From: a virus
Direction: 5' to 3' (one strand)
DNA: 35,646 nucleotides
IMG/VR virus record: IMGVR_UViG_3300021076_000050
Coordinates: 1 to 35,646 of that record
A model generated the notes under the pieces. The model saw nothing but the letters and a program-made list of their open reading frames with translations. It did not search any database and was not told the DNA's origin. The first letter of the stretch is position 1; every line of letters begins with the position of its first letter. Shown here piece by piece: positions 9,389-35,646 of the stretch. A program made the position numbers and the translations under genes.

Positions 9389-9600
9389 TTCAGCTTCCTT
9401 TCTGGGTAGTATTTCAACTGTTCGACCATCTCTTCATAGCATCTGATGGCCTCCTCTATTTTCTCTTCTGGATGGGCTTCTAACACTTCCCTACAATGTT
9501 GACGCAAAAATTCAATGTCATCACCGCGATGACCATCGGAAACCTTTTTAATCAATCCGCACAAATAATTCTTACGCGCTATCCATAACGCCCTGTTCAT
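9385..9600 (-). CDS. 71-residue helical protein of unknown function
   Basis: It starts at the ATG at 9600, where TGATG links it to the stop of the upstream gene. The protein is helical and mixed-charge (W-I-A-R-K-N-Y-L-C-G-L-I-K-K near the start; E-E-K-I-E-E-A-I-R-C-Y-E-E-M later). I see no known domain. It is coupled on both sides in the early minus-strand operon. Confidence 0.62.
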   Translation of the reverse strand: MNRALWIARKNYLCGLIKKVSDGHRGDDIEFLRQHCREVLEAHPEEKIEEAIRCYEEMVEQLKYYPERKLK

Positions 9601-9914
9601 CAGGCATGCGCCCAATTTTTGTAAACTTTCACGGGTTTACCAGCACCGCTTCTATCAGAGCCTTTCGGAGATGCAAACCCCTCTCGCTCTCTAGGCGGTA
9701 TGTAGCCTTGTTTCTTTAACCATTCGGGTTGCTCTCTCATGCTTATAATCTTTATTCGTCTATAAGAATGTATTACAGGTATTTTGATAACATCTGCTTC
9801 TTGAATAGATAACAAGAAGTCCTCATAACCTTTTGCGTGCTCTTTATCAAAAAGTTTGCTAGAAGGATTTATTTTTTCGTCATCAAATTCTCTATTCAAT
9901 ATCTTTATTAGCAT
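9600..9914 (-). CDS. 104-residue hypothetical early protein
   Basis: The start is the ATG at 9914, with AAGGA about 9 nt upstream. The frame stays open to an ATG at 9977, but that extra N-terminus is a shadow of the upstream gene. The sequence begins M-L-I-K-I-L-N-R-E-F-D-D-E-K and has an R-R-I-K-I-I-S-M-R-E-Q-P-E-W-L-K-K-Q-G-Y-I-P-P segment and a basic Gly/Ser-rich tail. The W-L-K-K-Q-G-Y pattern resembles short motifs in DNA-binding accessory proteins, but no family is certain. Confidence 0.55.
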   Translation of the reverse strand: MLIKILNREFDDEKINPSSKLFDKEHAKGYEDFLLSIQEADVIKIPVIHSYRRIKIISMREQPEWLKKQGYIPPREREGFASPKGSDRSGAGKPVKVYKNWAHA

Positions 9915-10368
9915 TGGCACGTTCCTTGTCCCAAGTAGAAAAATAATCCGCTCCGTGGATTTTCCCGTCTTTGCCATGAAAACAGAATTTATATAAATAA
10001 TTAATGTACTCTTCGTATATATTTTTTTCTATTAACATGTTTTCGTTAAAATAACATGCTCTGAATAGTCCAACGGTGGGGTAAAGGTTTATAAAAATTA
10101 AATTATTTGCCGCGTCTTTTGCGCGCTCTATGTCGTCAATTTTCCAATCCATAAAGCAATCAGCCCATGTTATGACCGCGGACTTAAGGCTTTCTGCTTG
10201 CTCTTCTATGGTTCCAATCCCTTCAAATAATGGGTTAAAGCAATAGGCTTTGTACAACCTGTTAAGAACCATTTCTGCTATTTCAATATAAATAGGTTCT
10301 ATGTCGTCATTAATACGAAACGGGTCTTTTTCTATAAACTTATTAAATTTAAACTCTACTACATTCAT
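9892..10368 (-). CDS. Possible replication protein P-like helicase loader
   Basis: A 158-residue protein directly after the O-like initiator. Residues 25-110 are helical: I-A-E-M-V-L-N-R-L-Y, F-N-P-L-F-E-G-I, then I-T-W-A-D-C-F-M-D-W-K-I-D-D-I-E-R-A-K-D and Y-P-T-V-G-L-F-R-A-C-Y. The order of a tryptophan-rich helix, a loop with conserved Pro and a final cysteine-bearing helix is reminiscent of lambda P-type loaders, which bring host DnaB to the origin. Position supports this; the sequence match is weak. The end overlaps the next gene by 23 nt. Confidence 0.5.
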   Translation of the reverse strand: MNVVEFKFNKFIEKDPFRINDDIEPIYIEIAEMVLNRLYKAYCFNPLFEGIGTIEEQAESLKSAVITWADCFMDWKIDDIERAKDAANNLIFINLYPTVGLFRACYFNENMLIEKNIYEEYINYLYKFCFHGKDGKIHGADYFSTWDKERANANKDIE

Positions 10369-10370
10369 TT

Positions 10371-11348
10371 CTACCCCGATTTTAGTTTTTTAAGGATGTC
10401 ACCTATTGTTTTCTCACCTGTAGGAGAAAGAACCGCGCTAGCTATATCCCTAAAAGCCTTTCCGTCCTGTTTGTATTGTTCTTGTTTTTGCTTTTGCTGC
10501 TCTTCTTCGTGTTCACGTATTGATTGTGAGGTAATGCCGTTGTAACCCTGTGGAATTAACCATTTACCCTCACGTACTTTTTTCAAAAAGATGTTAATTC
10601 GTTTATTAACTGCATCAAAGCTTTGTTCAGGGTTAGTTTCATAGGCGTAATAAACACCTTGGGAAAGAATATCACCCTCAATGTAAATATCACGATTAGC
10701 AATAACCATCTCAATATGGGTTTTAACAGAATCAGTACAAGAAAAAACAGAAACAGATTTGTTGTTTGTTTTCTTTCTTTCTTTTATTTGTTTTATTGTT
10801 GTATTTATATGTGCGCCATCCAACCGTTCAACGGTAAATTGGCGGAACGGTGAATTATCAAATTCTTCAGTGGTGGCGCGGGTTTTAGAAGGTTCAACCG
10901 TTCCGCCAATTTTGGCGGTGTGGTTAGCTTCTGAAATGTGGATAACTTTTGCCTTTGACCTATTTACAACCGTTCCGCCAATTTTGGCGGTGTGGCTATA
11001 AGCGGATTCAGGATTGAATCTTGTTCCATTTAAGACAACCAATTTCCAAGACCCAAATTTACCGCTTCCTTCTCTTTCTTGGCGATATTCAATTAAATTT
11101 GTAGAATTTAAATAACACATATATCGTTCGTAGGTTCTCTCGCTAATACTAAAATGCTGCATAATGTGATGTTTATTTGGCTTCCAGGTTGGAGGAAGGC
11201 TCTCAAGAAACATCCACAAATGTAGTTCTTTTGAATGCTTTATGGGAAATTTTTGAATTAAATCGGTAAGAACCATTACAAAAGGTTTTTGCTCTTTCTC
11301 GAATGCTTTGATATCGTATTTTTCTATATGAACAGGTTTATTGGTCAT
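10371..11348 (-). CDS. Lambda O-like replication initiator with internal origin
   Basis: 325 residues from ATG 11348 (AAGGGAA 8 nt upstream). The N-terminal third is a winged-helix domain (W-K-P-N-K-H-H-I-M-Q-H-F-S-I-S-E-R-T-Y-E-R-Y, about 55-76), as expected for an origin-binding initiator. The middle holds a repeated peptide, H-T-A-K-I-G-G-T-V, because the DNA encodes direct repeats that look like iterons. The C-terminal region is helical and Glu/Gln/Lys-rich with D-G-K-A-F-R-D-I-A-S, a likely partner-binding tail. The order initiator then possible loader, with the origin inside the initiator gene, mirrors lambdoid phages. It is the first gene of the leftward block. Confidence 0.7.
   Translation of the reverse strand: MTNKPVHIEKYDIKAFEKEQKPFVMVLTDLIQKFPIKHSKELHLWMFLESLPPTWKPNKHHIMQHFSISERTYERYMCYLNSTNLIEYRQEREGSGKFGSWKLVVLNGTRFNPESAYSHTAKIGGTVVNRSKAKVIHISEANHTAKIGGTVEPSKTRATTEEFDNSPFRQFTVERLDGAHINTTIKQIKERKKTNNKSVSVFSCTDSVKTHIEMVIANRDIYIEGDILSQGVYYAYETNPEQSFDAVNKRINIFLKKVREGKWLIPQGYNGITSQSIREHEEEQQKQKQEQYKQDGKAFRDIASAVLSPTGEKTIGDILKKLKSG
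10821..10995. repeat. Iterons: candidate replication origin inside the initiator gene
   Basis: Two identical 29-bp copies lie at 10895-10923 and 10967-10995, 72 bp apart. Each contains the dyad CCGCCAA-TT-TTGGCGG. A third, inverted match (ATTGGCGGAACGGT) is at 10838-10851, next to the small dyad ACCGTTcAACGGT around 10823-10835. Lambda's origin has the same logic, with four dyad iterons inside gene O. The AT-rich flank at 10742-10810 could be the melting region. Confidence 0.65.
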
Positions 11349-11395
11349 GCTAATTCCCTTTAACGGTTGTCGAAGCACTCCATGTGCTTAGGGAT

Positions 11396-13229: not shown

Positions 13230-14075
13230 ATGGCTTTAAAAGCAAAGAAACCAAGTGTGAAAGAATGCAGACTAAAAGCATTGTTTTATGGATCTGCCGG
13301 AGTCGGCAAAACGTATGCTGCGATTCAGTTCCCCAAGCCCTACATCATTGACACTGAGGGTTCAACGAACAAACCTCAGTACGTTAAATTAATCGAGAAG
13401 TCAGACGGTGCGGTGCTTATGACCGTGGACTTTGACGAGATGATTAACGAGGTAAGGGAATTATTAACAACAAAGCATGACTATAAGACTTTGATTCTTG
13501 ACTCGCTAACACTGGCTTATAACGATTTGCTTGAAAAAGCCGAACGCAAGGTAGGTACAGACTTTGGCCGTCATTACGGAGAAGCCAATAAACGCATGAA
13601 GCAATTGCTTAACCTGCTATTCAGACTCGACATGAACGTTATCATCACCTCGCACTCTAAGAACGAGTACGGGCAGAATTTGGCGGTTTTAGGGCAAACG
13701 TTTGATTGTTACAAGAAACTAGATTACCTTTTCGATCTCGTATTTGAAATTCAAAAGCGCGGAACGCACCGAGTGGGTCTTGTGAAGAAGTCACGGTTTG
13801 AGACATTCCAAGACAGCGACACGTTCCCATTCTCATACGAAGAGATTGCAGAGCGTTACGGCCGCGCAGTAATTGAACGTGAAGCCGTGGCGCAAGAACT
13901 AGCCGAGCCTGAGCAAGTAAAAGAGATTACACGATTAATCGACTTGCTTAAGGTTCCCGAAGAGATGTATCAAAAGTGGTTGGATAAAGCCAGTTCCGAA
14001 AGCTGGGAAGATATGCAAAAGGATTCAATACAAAAATGTATCGACCACCTGAAATCAAAAATTCAGGGGGAATGA
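13230..14075 (+). CDS. Sak4-like RecA-fold ATPase (single-strand annealing)
   Basis: A 281-residue protein with Walker A G-S-A-G-V-G-K-T at 21-28, a Walker B strand T-L-I-L-D ending at D91 and a sensor-like N-V-I-I-T-S-H-S-K. It fits the AAA_24 family, in which phage Sak4 proteins are RecA-core ATPases that promote single-strand annealing, usually with a partner SSB. Here a DUF669 SSB-like gene follows two genes later, the usual pairing. The C-terminal 70 residues are helical and charged and may contact the partner. GGAG precedes the ATG. Its role is recombination and repair of replicating phage DNA. Confidence 0.85.
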   Translation: MALKAKKPSVKECRLKALFYGSAGVGKTYAAIQFPKPYIIDTEGSTNKPQYVKLIEKSDGAVLMTVDFDEMINEVRELLTTKHDYKTLILDSLTLAYNDLLEKAERKVGTDFGRHYGEANKRMKQLLNLLFRLDMNVIITSHSKNEYGQNLAVLGQTFDCYKKLDYLFDLVFEIQKRGTHRVGLVKKSRFETFQDSDTFPFSYEEIAERYGRAVIEREAVAQELAEPEQVKEITRLIDLLKVPEEMYQKWLDKASSESWEDMQKDSIQKCIDHLKSKIQGE

Positions 14076-17463: not shown

Positions 17464-17799
17464 TTAATTTAATCCGATATGGACAGGTCGGCAGCTATTC
17501 ACCGAAAATATACATTGTCCATTTCCGCTTGAAGTACAACCAGATAATGAATGACCTGTAACGTCCACTTTAATTCCTGCCGTTGGATATTTAGAAGGGT
17601 TCGATGTTTTCGATCTCACGTATAAATCGCTTCCAGTAGCCAAGTGTGTCTCGCAAGACGAAGGGGTTATTCCATCCAAACATAAAGTTATTGGCACATT
17701 AATTGGCTTTCCCGCATAAAGAATGTTAAACAATACTCCATTGCAAAATGCTGAACTTGAACCCAAAGTTAACATAACTGCTAGTAGTTTTATTTTCAT
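17464..17799 (-). CDS. Secreted cysteine-bearing accessory protein (moron)
   Basis: A 111-residue protein on the opposite strand to its whole neighbourhood. It has a signal peptide, M-K-I-K-L-L-A-V-M-L-T-L-G-S-S-S-A, then a mature beta-rich domain with L-C-L-D-G-I-T-P-S-S-C-E, Y-P-T-A-G-I-K-V and L-S-G-C-T-S-S-G-N-G-Q-C-I-F-S-V. Paired cysteines suggest disulphides in the periplasm or outside the cell. From memory it resembles small secreted proteins of Legionella and relatives; this is unverified. AAGGATAAATCATAG precedes the ATG. Opposite orientation and export suggest a cargo gene that alters the infected host rather than serving replication. Confidence 0.7.
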   Translation of the reverse strand: MKIKLLAVMLTLGSSSAFCNGVLFNILYAGKPINVPITLCLDGITPSSCETHLATGSDLYVRSKTSNPSKYPTAGIKVDVTGHSLSGCTSSGNGQCIFSVNSCRPVHIGLN

Positions 17800-18208: not shown

Positions 18209-18820
18209 ATGCGAATGCCTCAATCAATAGAAAGTGAAAAAAGGGTTCTTGGTGCACTATTATTAGATAGCTCACTGTTGAAAAATATTTCAAATGAACT
18301 TTGCCCCGAAGATTTCACCAAAACGCTACATAAAGAAATATTTAATCAAATGAGAAAACTTGCAATTGTTCATAAAAGTTTCGATGCGCAAATTATATGT
18401 GATGCATTAAAATTAAATAAAGCAGGTGAAAAATATCTTTATGAGTTAGCCAATGACACTGCTTCTACTGCCAACATTAAAGCGTATTCCGATATAATCC
18501 GCGAGAAATCAGTACAAAGACAGCTTATCGCTGTAGCCACCGACATTGCTAAAGCTGCAAGTAAACCGGGGAACGAAGGGATTAGAGAACTTCTTGATGA
18601 CGCTGAAAATAAAGTACGTTCTATCTATGATGATGGGGTTTGCGGTTTTCAATCACATCTTGCTTCTTTCTTTAAAGAAATTGTAGAAGAAATTGAATCT
18701 ATCCCAAGAGATGAGTTTGACGTAGGGTACATCCAATACACCATCATTGAAGTAAACAAGGCTTTGGTCGATACACTTCGCCATGTTGAAGATACACATC
18801 CAAAACATGAAGAGGATTAG
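18209..18820 (+). CDS. DnaB N-terminal-domain protein lacking the helicase domain
   Basis: A 203-residue protein. Residues 3-140 match the replicative helicase DnaB N-terminal domain and linker: P-Q-S-I-E-S-E-K-R-V-L-G-A-L-L-L-D at 4-20, D-F-T-K-T-L-H-K-E-I-F at 35-45, Y-L-Y-E-L-A-N-D-T-A-S-T-A-N-I at 76-90, I-R-E-K-S-V-Q-R-Q-L-I, and E-L-L-D-D-A-E-N-K-V-R. The RecA-like motor is missing; instead there are about 60 acidic helical residues. No Walker motifs occur. The DnaB N-domain normally makes the helicase collar and binds primase, so this could be a partner-capturing adaptor or an inhibitor that enters host DnaB rings. The next gene downstream does not restore the missing domain. Confidence 0.8.
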   Translation: MRMPQSIESEKRVLGALLLDSSLLKNISNELCPEDFTKTLHKEIFNQMRKLAIVHKSFDAQIICDALKLNKAGEKYLYELANDTASTANIKAYSDIIREKSVQRQLIAVATDIAKAASKPGNEGIRELLDDAENKVRSIYDDGVCGFQSHLASFFKEIVEEIESIPRDEFDVGYIQYTIIEVNKALVDTLRHVEDTHPKHEED

Positions 18821-18823
18821 ATA

Positions 18824-19006
18824 ATGATTTTGTGGCTTGTGAAGTTTCCAAAACATCATTGGCCACGAGAAATTGCCTACTGCTCCTATGAACAAGCTGT
18901 TCGAATGTGCGAAAAATTTAATATTCCGAAAACTAAAGCAAATTTCAGAATCTTGTATTTTGAAGAAGATAACGACATTAATTCTTTTTCTAAAGAAGAC
19001 CTGTAA
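18824..19006 (+). CDS. 60-residue hypothetical protein
   Basis: It follows the DnaB-like gene by 3 nt with GAGGATTAG upstream. The sequence starts M-I-L-W-L-V-K-F-P-K-H-H-W-P-R-E-I-A-Y and has A-V-R-M-C-E-K-F-N-I-P and an acidic end. No family is recognised. Close coupling suggests joint action with the DnaB-like protein. Confidence 0.62.
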   Translation: MILWLVKFPKHHWPREIAYCSYEQAVRMCEKFNIPKTKANFRILYFEEDNDINSFSKEDL

Positions 19007-19147: not shown

Positions 19148-19447
19148 ATGGCAAAACGTAACAATATGCAACTTGTAGAATTTATCACAATTAATGACAA
19201 AAGATTCTTGCCTTGTCCTTTTTGTGGAACTAAAGAAGATGATGAAGGTCATTCTTTTCATGTGCTTCAAGATTGGTGGTACAAGATAAGATGCACCACT
19301 TGTGAAGCTTGCCCTTACTCTTCGGAATCGAAAACTTTAGACGCTGCTATTGAGTTTTGGAATAAACGAGTTCAACTTTCCTCTTTAGATGATGCCAAGT
19401 TTCTTATCAAGAAAGTAATCAATGATTTAACAAAAGTGATCGAATAA
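19148..19447 (+). CDS. Lar-like (restriction alleviation) zinc protein
   Basis: A 99-residue protein with L-P-C23-P-F-C26-G-T, a W-W-Y-K-I-R-C49-T-T-C52-E-A-C core and the terminal A-A-I-E-F-W-N-K-R motif (66-74), the pattern of the Lar family. Rac prophage Lar in Escherichia coli modulates type I restriction and protects incoming DNA. Many phage members are known only by sequence. The last 25 residues are an extra helix. AGGTAA precedes the ATG. It has its own promoter and dyad and is followed 2 nt later by the serine recombinase. Confidence 0.68.
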   Translation: MAKRNNMQLVEFITINDKRFLPCPFCGTKEDDEGHSFHVLQDWWYKIRCTTCEACPYSSESKTLDAAIEFWNKRVQLSSLDDAKFLIKKVINDLTKVIE

Positions 19448-34610: not shown

Positions 34611-35156
34611 ATGATTGTAAAAATATGTAAGATGCATGGTGAATTAACAATTGATATGGTTTATCAACAATATTCAATTCATAAAGAAAAAAGATATCCA
34701 TATTTTCAATGTAAGATTTGTGTGAGTGATAAGAAAAAAAGGTTGTATGATGCTAATCCTGATAAATATAGGGCATATGCTTTAGAGCAAAGAAAAAAAC
34801 ATTATGAAAAATGTCTTGAACGTGACAAAAAATATAAAAGACAATTATTAATTGATGAAAGTAAATATGAAGAATTAAATCAAAAACAAAATGGTCTTTG
34901 CGCAATTTGCAATAAATGTGAAACTTCGAAAAGTCATAAAAATAGAACTCGAACCGATATTGATTTAAATTTAACAATAAAAAGATTGGCTATCGATCAT
35001 AATCATAAATCTGGAAAAGTGCGCGGATTGCTTTGCTCTAAATGCAATACCGCACTTGGATTATTTCAAGATTCAATTGCTATTATTAAATCAGCAATTA
35101 CTTATCTTTCTTTTCATGAGGATTATGATGAACATGAAGTTGAGATAAAACAGTAG
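34611..35156 (+). CDS. Endonuclease VII-type HNH nuclease, inserted in reverse
   Basis: 181 residues from ATG 34611 (AAGGAG upstream). It has a basic, Lys-rich N-terminal part with C-K-I-C near 34-37. The nuclease core is C97-A-I-C100, then A-I-D129-H-N-H132-K-S-G-K-V-R-G-L-L-C142-x2-C145-N and G-L-F-Q-D-S. It is related to the 5105 enzyme in the core but differs elsewhere. It is the only gene of its kind on the plus strand here, overlapping the portal 3' end by 59 bp. It has its own promoter and is strongly AT-rich. This is the profile of a free-standing homing nuclease. Confidence 0.88.
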   Translation: MIVKICKMHGELTIDMVYQQYSIHKEKRYPYFQCKICVSDKKKRLYDANPDKYRAYALEQRKKHYEKCLERDKKYKRQLLIDESKYEELNQKQNGLCAICNKCETSKSHKNRTRTDIDLNLTIKRLAIDHNHKSGKVRGLLCSKCNTALGLFQDSIAIIKSAITYLSFHEDYDEHEVEIKQ

Positions 35157-35646
35157 CAATTTTAGAAGAAAAGTCTTTTTCAGACTTATCGGCATCTAAT
35201 AAAAGTCTTCCGTGATCTACTTTTATTTTTTGTTGTTCCAATCCCATCTTAGTTTGCATCTCTTGAGCTTTAAGTATCATTTCTGCTTGATCAAGAAGAT
35301 GCTTCTCTTTCCTAATTTTAAGTTCTTCTGCTCTTTCCATTAGTGCTTGTTCTTCGAGATGCATTTTCTGCTCATTCATCATCATCTGTTGTTGCTGAGC
35401 TTTCATTTGTTGCTGAGCCATCATCTCTTGAGGATTTGGGGGTTTAGGAGGAATTGGCTTTCCCTCTTCTTTTGCAATTATTTCTGGAGGAACTAAAGTT
35501 TTAAATCTTTCTGCTATTTGTGGCATAAATTGGACATCCAAATTCTTAGCCCATAAATCTGCAATTAAAGGAAATATAGTAGGATTTGCTTGCAAAGTCT
35601 GCTGCATGAATTCGAGCGCAATATCCTTCTGAACCGCAAAGCTTGG
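35098..35646 (-). CDS. Portal protein, C-terminal part (continues at base 1714)
   Basis: This is the C-terminal 3' portion of the gene described at 1-1714; the frame runs off the window end and re-enters at base 1. It contains the segment P-T-I-F-P-L-I-A-D-L-W-A-K and a Gln/Met/Lys-rich coiled coil (about the last 115 residues: M-K-A-Q-Q-Q-Q-M-M-M-N-E-Q-K-M). This coiled coil matches the helical barrel of P22-type portals that sits inside the head. The stop lies inside the 3' end of the reversed HNH gene. Confidence 0.92.
   Translation of the reverse strand, partial: PSFAVQKDIALEFMQQTLQANPTIFPLIADLWAKNLDVQFMPQIAERFKTLVPPEIIAKEEGKPIPPKPPNPQEMMAQQQMKAQQQQMMMNEQKMHLEEQALMERAEELKIRKEKHLLDQAEMILKAQEMQTKMGLEQQKIKVDHGRLLLDADKSEKDFSSKIATVLSQLHVHHNPHEKKDK
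35592..35646. repeat. Terminal direct repeat, right copy
   Basis: Identical to bases 1-55; see the left copy. The two are most simply the same stretch of DNA represented twice after assembly of a circular or permuted molecule. Confidence 0.9.

Follow-up and report, generated by a model that had tools for sequence, protein, structure and literature searches.

A stand-alone DnaB N-terminal domain without the helicase motor in an uncultured phage and its relatives

Introduction

The N-terminal domain of the helicase DnaB dimerises in the ring and docks primase. In H. pylori, the isolated N-domain with its hairpin binds the C-terminal domain of DnaG, and in Bacillus-type DnaB the residues I119 and I125 are needed for DnaG binding (PMC2761005). 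The loaders DnaC, lambda P and DciA bind at a site built from the linker helix of one DnaB subunit and the docking helix of the adjacent one (PMC9912922, PMC6391071). Helicase loading can also be a phage target, as a protein of an S. aureus phage acts on DnaI and inhibits this step (PMC4887207). Here we analysed the IMG/VR virus record IMGVR_UViG_3300021076_000050 over its full 35,646 bases (the window). An earlier note on this DNA had described the ORF at 18209-18820 as a DnaB N-domain without a helicase, and its author knew of no well-described phage system of this form. In agreement, our searches found no literature on a truncated or stand-alone phage DnaB N-domain, and no such system in named phages among the matches listed.

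Results

Domain identity of the 203-aa protein

The ORF at 18209-18820 (plus strand) starts with ATG behind an AAGGA-like ribosome site and encodes a stand-alone protein of 203 aa. Its residues 3-99 matched PF00772 at 79.4 bits (cut-off 23; E 2.3e-22), covering profile positions 2-103 of 103, which is the whole domain. NCBIfam DnaB models matched residues 3-175 with E values from 1e-25 to 3e-30, and TIGR00665 gave 97 bits against a cut-off of 385, so the level of a full-length DnaB equivalog was not reached. Among solved structures, E. coli DnaB aligned with residues 4-142 (1.6e-20, 77 bits) and Geobacillus DnaB with residues 4-172 (9e-20), through the hairpin and the linker helix. The latter alignment extended to residue 183 of the Geobacillus-type DnaB, in keeping with a linker helix after the hairpin. 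The collar and linker that had been called clear from the letters were thus confirmed, and the concern that no DnaB profile might match was removed by the strong PF00772 and NCBIfam hits.

The AlphaFold2 model (pLDDT 90.6) showed a head and helical hairpin fold. The globular head (residues 1-99, 18209-18505) contained helices within residues 7-83 with pLDDT values of 93-98. The hairpin of the N-tier (residues 100-140, 18506-18628), which includes I107 and I113, was modelled as helices 90-118 and 125-140. It was followed by helix 146-164 at the position of the linker helix (residues about 145-165, 18641-18703) and by helix 172-196. VIA-align matched the model to the DnaB fold with a Z of about 18 over 156 residues, and Foldseek also led to DnaB. 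The helicase-binding domain of DnaG reached a Z of only 8-9 in VIA-align, and DnaB was therefore the closer fold. No match to the lambda P-like loaders (PF06992/phrog_109) was present in the Pfam and PHROG profiles. The closest domain matches were the DnaBs of Legionella adelaidensis (42%, 113 bits) and of a Legionellales MAG (40%, 111 bits); these bit scores and that of E. coli DnaB come from separate searches. P1 Ban was 40% identical over residues 3-136. The 203-aa protein therefore corresponds to the DnaB collar with its hairpin and linker helix, and has no RecA motor.

Absence of the motor and the C-terminal tail

The DnaB_C motor profile PF03796 had no match in this ORF or in the whole closed genome, even at E 10, so the motor noted as absent from the ORF is missing from the entire genome. 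The contig ends overlap exactly by 55 bp (1-55 and 35592-35646) and the portal gene spans the join (2-1714 and 35098-35646, both minus). Because of these two features, we treated the window as a closed circular genome of about 35.6 kb, despite its IMG/VR label as linear. The phage has no DnaB helicase of its own. Its terminase matched those of Pelagibacter phage EXVC031P Hodr, Cronobacter phage vB_CsaP_Ss1 and Burkholderia phage BcepC6B, among others, at 37-41%, and the phages related through this protein infect many different hosts.

In place of the motor there is an extra conserved helix (residues 172-196) with a short acidic end (18713-18817). Residues 144-203 hold 14 D+E and 5 K+R and form two predicted helices, 146-164 in the linker-helix position and 172-196 in addition to it. 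The earlier description of an acidic tail holds for the disordered-looking last ~10 residues only, and the remainder is the two helices, which are conserved across phages. This module of a linker helix and one extra helix is common to 14 of the 18 motorless proteins described below, and the other four forms lack it. A scan with the tail alone found ten loci in viral contigs, each of which belongs to the motorless family. The 84,980 species genomes scanned had none, and none was found in isolate genomes either. MAFFT had placed the extra helix on the helix after Walker B of the motor. We rejected a leftover motor because profile comparison gave only E 0.31, and elsewhere; no motor remnant was detectable in the tail by this comparison. 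The extra helix also had no convincing match to a known domain by sequence in PDB or PHROG.

A family of motorless proteins

Using the Sak4 gene (13230-14075) as bait, we fetched 80 related IMG/VR loci. PF00772 occurred in 11 of 50 records, accompanied by the motor in only two of the 11 (G025 and G047). Further members were added by a search with the motorless alignment, giving 18 distinct proteins, namely that of the window and 17 in related IMG/VR phages. L149, a weak partial match that would be the nineteenth, was left out. PF03796 had no match in the other motorless-carrier records that we searched. A local motor profile likewise detected no motor in any locus with a motorless homologue, the short contigs L019 and L051 among them. 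The absence of a detected DnaB motor is therefore common to all carriers.

All 18 forms are intact open frames. Pairwise dN/dS among the genes was 0.05-0.23, which indicates purifying selection, and in most pairs the tail was constrained as much as the head. These data answer the question of design or degeneration that the earlier note had posed. A full-length helicase in relatives at this site, with a fresh frameshift or deletion in the window, is refuted by motorless relatives and purifying selection; no relative has the helicase at this locus. In the two relatives with a complete DnaB (L050 and L053), the helicase gene occupies the replication slot on the minus strand, adjoining an O-like initiator; the corresponding slot of the window holds the ORFs at 9600-10368 and 10371-11378. 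As the motorless gene is found elsewhere and on the plus strand, it is not a helicase decaying in place.

The members differ in architecture. Head-only forms have 122-147 aa. The late-operon forms lack the hairpin loop and have the two helices fused, as in L110, in which a single 51-residue helix runs into the last helix (model pLDDT 93). Since the late forms have no hairpin loop and four forms have no tail, no single interface except the head and the start of the hairpin is present in all. In a tree of 104 columns, most motorless forms lay apart from 44 full-length DnaBs with moderate support (84/82). A claim of one monophyletic motorless group was set aside, as a tree of this length neither proves nor excludes a single origin.

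With the window protein, L110 and L094 as queries, the matches listed in named phages were only helicases, annotated or unannotated, and four 'hypothetical' ones that we checked had 473-534 aa. In bacteria (10 genomes of the order of the Legionellales MAG and 185 of its class), the matches listed were all in open frames of at least 358 aa. We also considered phrog_23150 as a known motorless family and rejected it, since its profile continues into the motor part of full-length DnaBs. The stand-alone DnaB collar family of uncultured phages is thus real, selected and widespread.

Genomic placement

The window copy is located in an early-type cassette, not in a late operon. Within the window clade, the gene lies between an invertase gene and either a DUF7352 gene or a secreted-looking minus-strand ORF, and the gene immediately upstream varies. 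In the window, this neighbour encodes a DUF7352 protein (PF24043; 17856-18152, plus), which is also found near the DnaB N-domain gene in L010 and L013. The downstream neighbour (18824-19006, plus) encodes 60 aa of no family in the Pfam and PHROG profiles. In L010, L046 and L108 this position is taken by a DUF6378 gene, which shares 4 bp with the DnaB N-domain gene; in L013, L015 and L017 the gene 1 bp upstream encodes a 116-aa protein that belongs to no known family. An exchange was seen between L017 and L016, where the two-gene cassette with the DnaB N-domain is replaced by a 298-aa orphan (L016:13465-14361) between flanks that are 95% identical over 854 bp upstream and 86% identical over 1231 bp downstream. 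Searches of Pfam, PHROG and PADLOC gave no match for the orphan. The late operon houses the motorless gene in more distant phages, where it sits between scaffold and coat genes (L110, L112 and L115), beside the portal gene (L117), upstream of a portal gene (L135) or directly behind terL (L094 and L095). The motorless gene is therefore swappable accessory cargo in phages.

Several further features were observed around these loci. The start of the late-operon gene overlaps the stop of the scaffold gene in L110 (5983-6492), L112 and L115, with the major coat gene beyond. The copies in L094 (1447-1815) and L095 (1483-1863) are head-only, with 122-126 aa, and possibly have a separate origin. In the window, 17464-17799 (minus) encodes a 111-aa protein of no family with a signal-peptide-like start and several cysteines, which occurs at the same place in L010, L013, L015, L016, L017 and L019. 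Two genes downstream of the DnaB N-domain gene, 19148-19447 encodes a Lar-like restriction alleviation protein (phrog_599, E 2e-10). An association with defence was considered and dropped, as PADLOC gave no match.

Replication genes and host

The replication region of the window contains an O-like initiator slot (10371-11378, minus; weak match to phrog_4221) and a P-like helicase-loader slot with two ORFs (9600-10368, minus). The earlier note had singled out the 9892 product as a partner for structure prediction. The ORFs at 9892-10368 and 9600-9977 do lie at the lambda-P-like loader slot, as its N and C parts, which supports this pairing in part; the second ORF is the one that aligns with the C-terminal portion of the P-like profile (E 4e-28), as it also does in L006 and L013. 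In these two and in the window the slot consists of two overlapping ORFs (158 and 125 aa), where other relatives have a single ORF of some 300 aa, and the N part is of a different type. The P-like loaders of relatives matched phrog_109 and PF06992, two of three falling slightly under the PF06992 cut-off. Within the 50 records, a P-like match occurred in 8/9 motorless carriers versus 17/41 non-carriers (Fisher p 0.023, uncorrected for relatedness), and 17 of the 25 records with P-like loaders were without the motorless gene. The distant carriers G052, G056 and G057 gave no P-like match; G052 and G056 have a helicase-like ORF of about 573 aa, as judged by eye.

The Sak4-like RecA-type ATPase is found in the early region of all window-type phages. 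The Legionellales MAG with the close DnaB also holds a Sak4 relative (L187, 61%). As the closest DnaB matches come from Legionella and Legionellales and this Sak4 relative lies in the same MAG, a Legionellales host is hinted at by sequence. The contig L186, which belongs to a phage of this group and has a Sak4 that is 88% identical, was binned in a Planctomycetota MAG.

Discussion

What is established for the 203-aa protein is its identity as a DnaB N-domain, its missing motor, the selection on the gene, its conservation and its cargo-like placement; its partners, its direction of action (inhibition rather than recruitment) and its timing are inferences. As the phage has no DnaB, the partners would most likely be host proteins. 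The candidates are the host DnaB collar, the C-terminal domain of the host primase DnaG as a ligand of that collar, and the helicase loader as a ligand of the linker helix. Sequence comparison shows that the signature residues of DnaB have been kept, as have the positions that contact primase. By alignment, I107 and I113 correspond to I119 and I125 of Geobacillus/Bacillus DnaB. Of 16 motorless proteins, 15 have I, L or V at position 113, which is variable in phage full-length DnaBs. A collar piece unable to move on DNA would most likely fill one of these contacts as a decoy or dominant-negative subunit and so uncouple or divert the host helicase-primase, while the phage O/P-like proteins would bring DnaB to the phage DNA. 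We put the probability that the protein is such a decoy or dominant-negative accessory protein acting on the host helicase-primase at about 0.45. However, several observations do not sit easily with a decoy. Loaders require both the linker helix, which is kept, and the docking helix, which is part of the missing motor. The late-operon placement is ill-suited to an early takeover factor, and the interface is not uniform among the forms. The association with P-like loaders is modest, involves related sequences and does not extend to the distant carriers. The wider view that the family as a whole is a natural set of motorless collars, carried as swappable cargo that poisons or re-routes the host helicase-primase, is more tentative.

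A loading, recruiting or poisoning role on DnaB or primase, as first proposed, is plausible. The case for an obligatory part in loading or recruitment is weaker: most near-complete relatives that have this kind of replication module do without the gene, it can be exchanged between near-identical flanks, and some phages have it in the late operon. Since the gene is dispensable and swappable, takeover by a decoy fits better than an obligatory loader. Other explanations were weighed against the same evidence. A positive role in phage replication, in which the protein brings host DnaB or primase to the phage origin or aids the P-like loader, would suit the O/P-like modules of most window-clade carriers, the retained linker helix and a phage without its own DnaB. 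We nonetheless think it rather improbable, given the many P-like loader records without the gene, the clean replacement in L016 and the late copies elsewhere. Somewhat less unlikely is a re-use of the collar fold outside replication, for example in assembly, packaging or counter-defence. The copies next to structural and packaging genes, the head-only forms and an extra helix seen nowhere else in the collections searched would agree with it; the kept signature and primase-contact residues, the early-type cassette of the window and the missing defence model match speak against it.

Two further explanations have very little room. The protein might be a collar that acts in trans on a RecA-like motor encoded by another gene, for instance the Sak4-like ATPase, which shares the early region with it. 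This split helicase is very improbable, as Sak4 is present with or without the DnaB N-domain gene and its family consists of strand-annealing proteins, and by eye no Sak4-like gene is among the predicted ORFs of L110. A decaying remnant of a phage helicase, to which the clear DnaB descent of the domain and the head-only copies might point, is the least credible of all: the 18 open frames are under selection and share a conserved new tail in most cases, no trace of the motor persists, and the full DnaBs of relatives lie at another locus and strand.

The family shows that the DnaB N-domain can exist as an independent gene. If the decoy reading is true, evolution would have supplied a dominant-negative tool for probing how DnaB contacts DnaG and its loader, and the phages would have a takeover strategy that relies on a replisome piece copied from the host. 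This reading also raises the testable question of whether an isolated collar and linker can control a replication fork.

Among known systems, the S. aureus phage protein that acts on DnaI may be similar in kind, being small and disabling host helicase loading; it is however no DnaB homologue, and its target is the loader ATPase. Lambda P and the P-like loaders (PF06992, phrog_109) also act on host DnaB and are found in the same genomes as the motorless gene, but they are unrelated in sequence and are DnaB binders rather than DnaB look-alikes. The C-terminal helicase-binding domain of DnaG (P16) has a related head and helical hairpin fold (Z 8-9), although the match is far weaker than that to DnaB and no sequence similarity was detected. 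The phage full-length DnaBs (P1 Ban, P22-type, L050 and L053) share the same N-domain and are phage-encoded, but they are complete helicases and, in the relatives, occupy the replication slot on the opposite strand. The bacterial DnaBs with Geobacillus, E. coli and V. cholerae structures have the same head, hairpin and linker helix (about 40% identity over head and hairpin, Z about 18), whereas the window protein is without the RecA motor and its Walker motifs, has an extra C-terminal helix and is a stand-alone gene. The motorless family is thus a variant form of the known DnaB N-domain.
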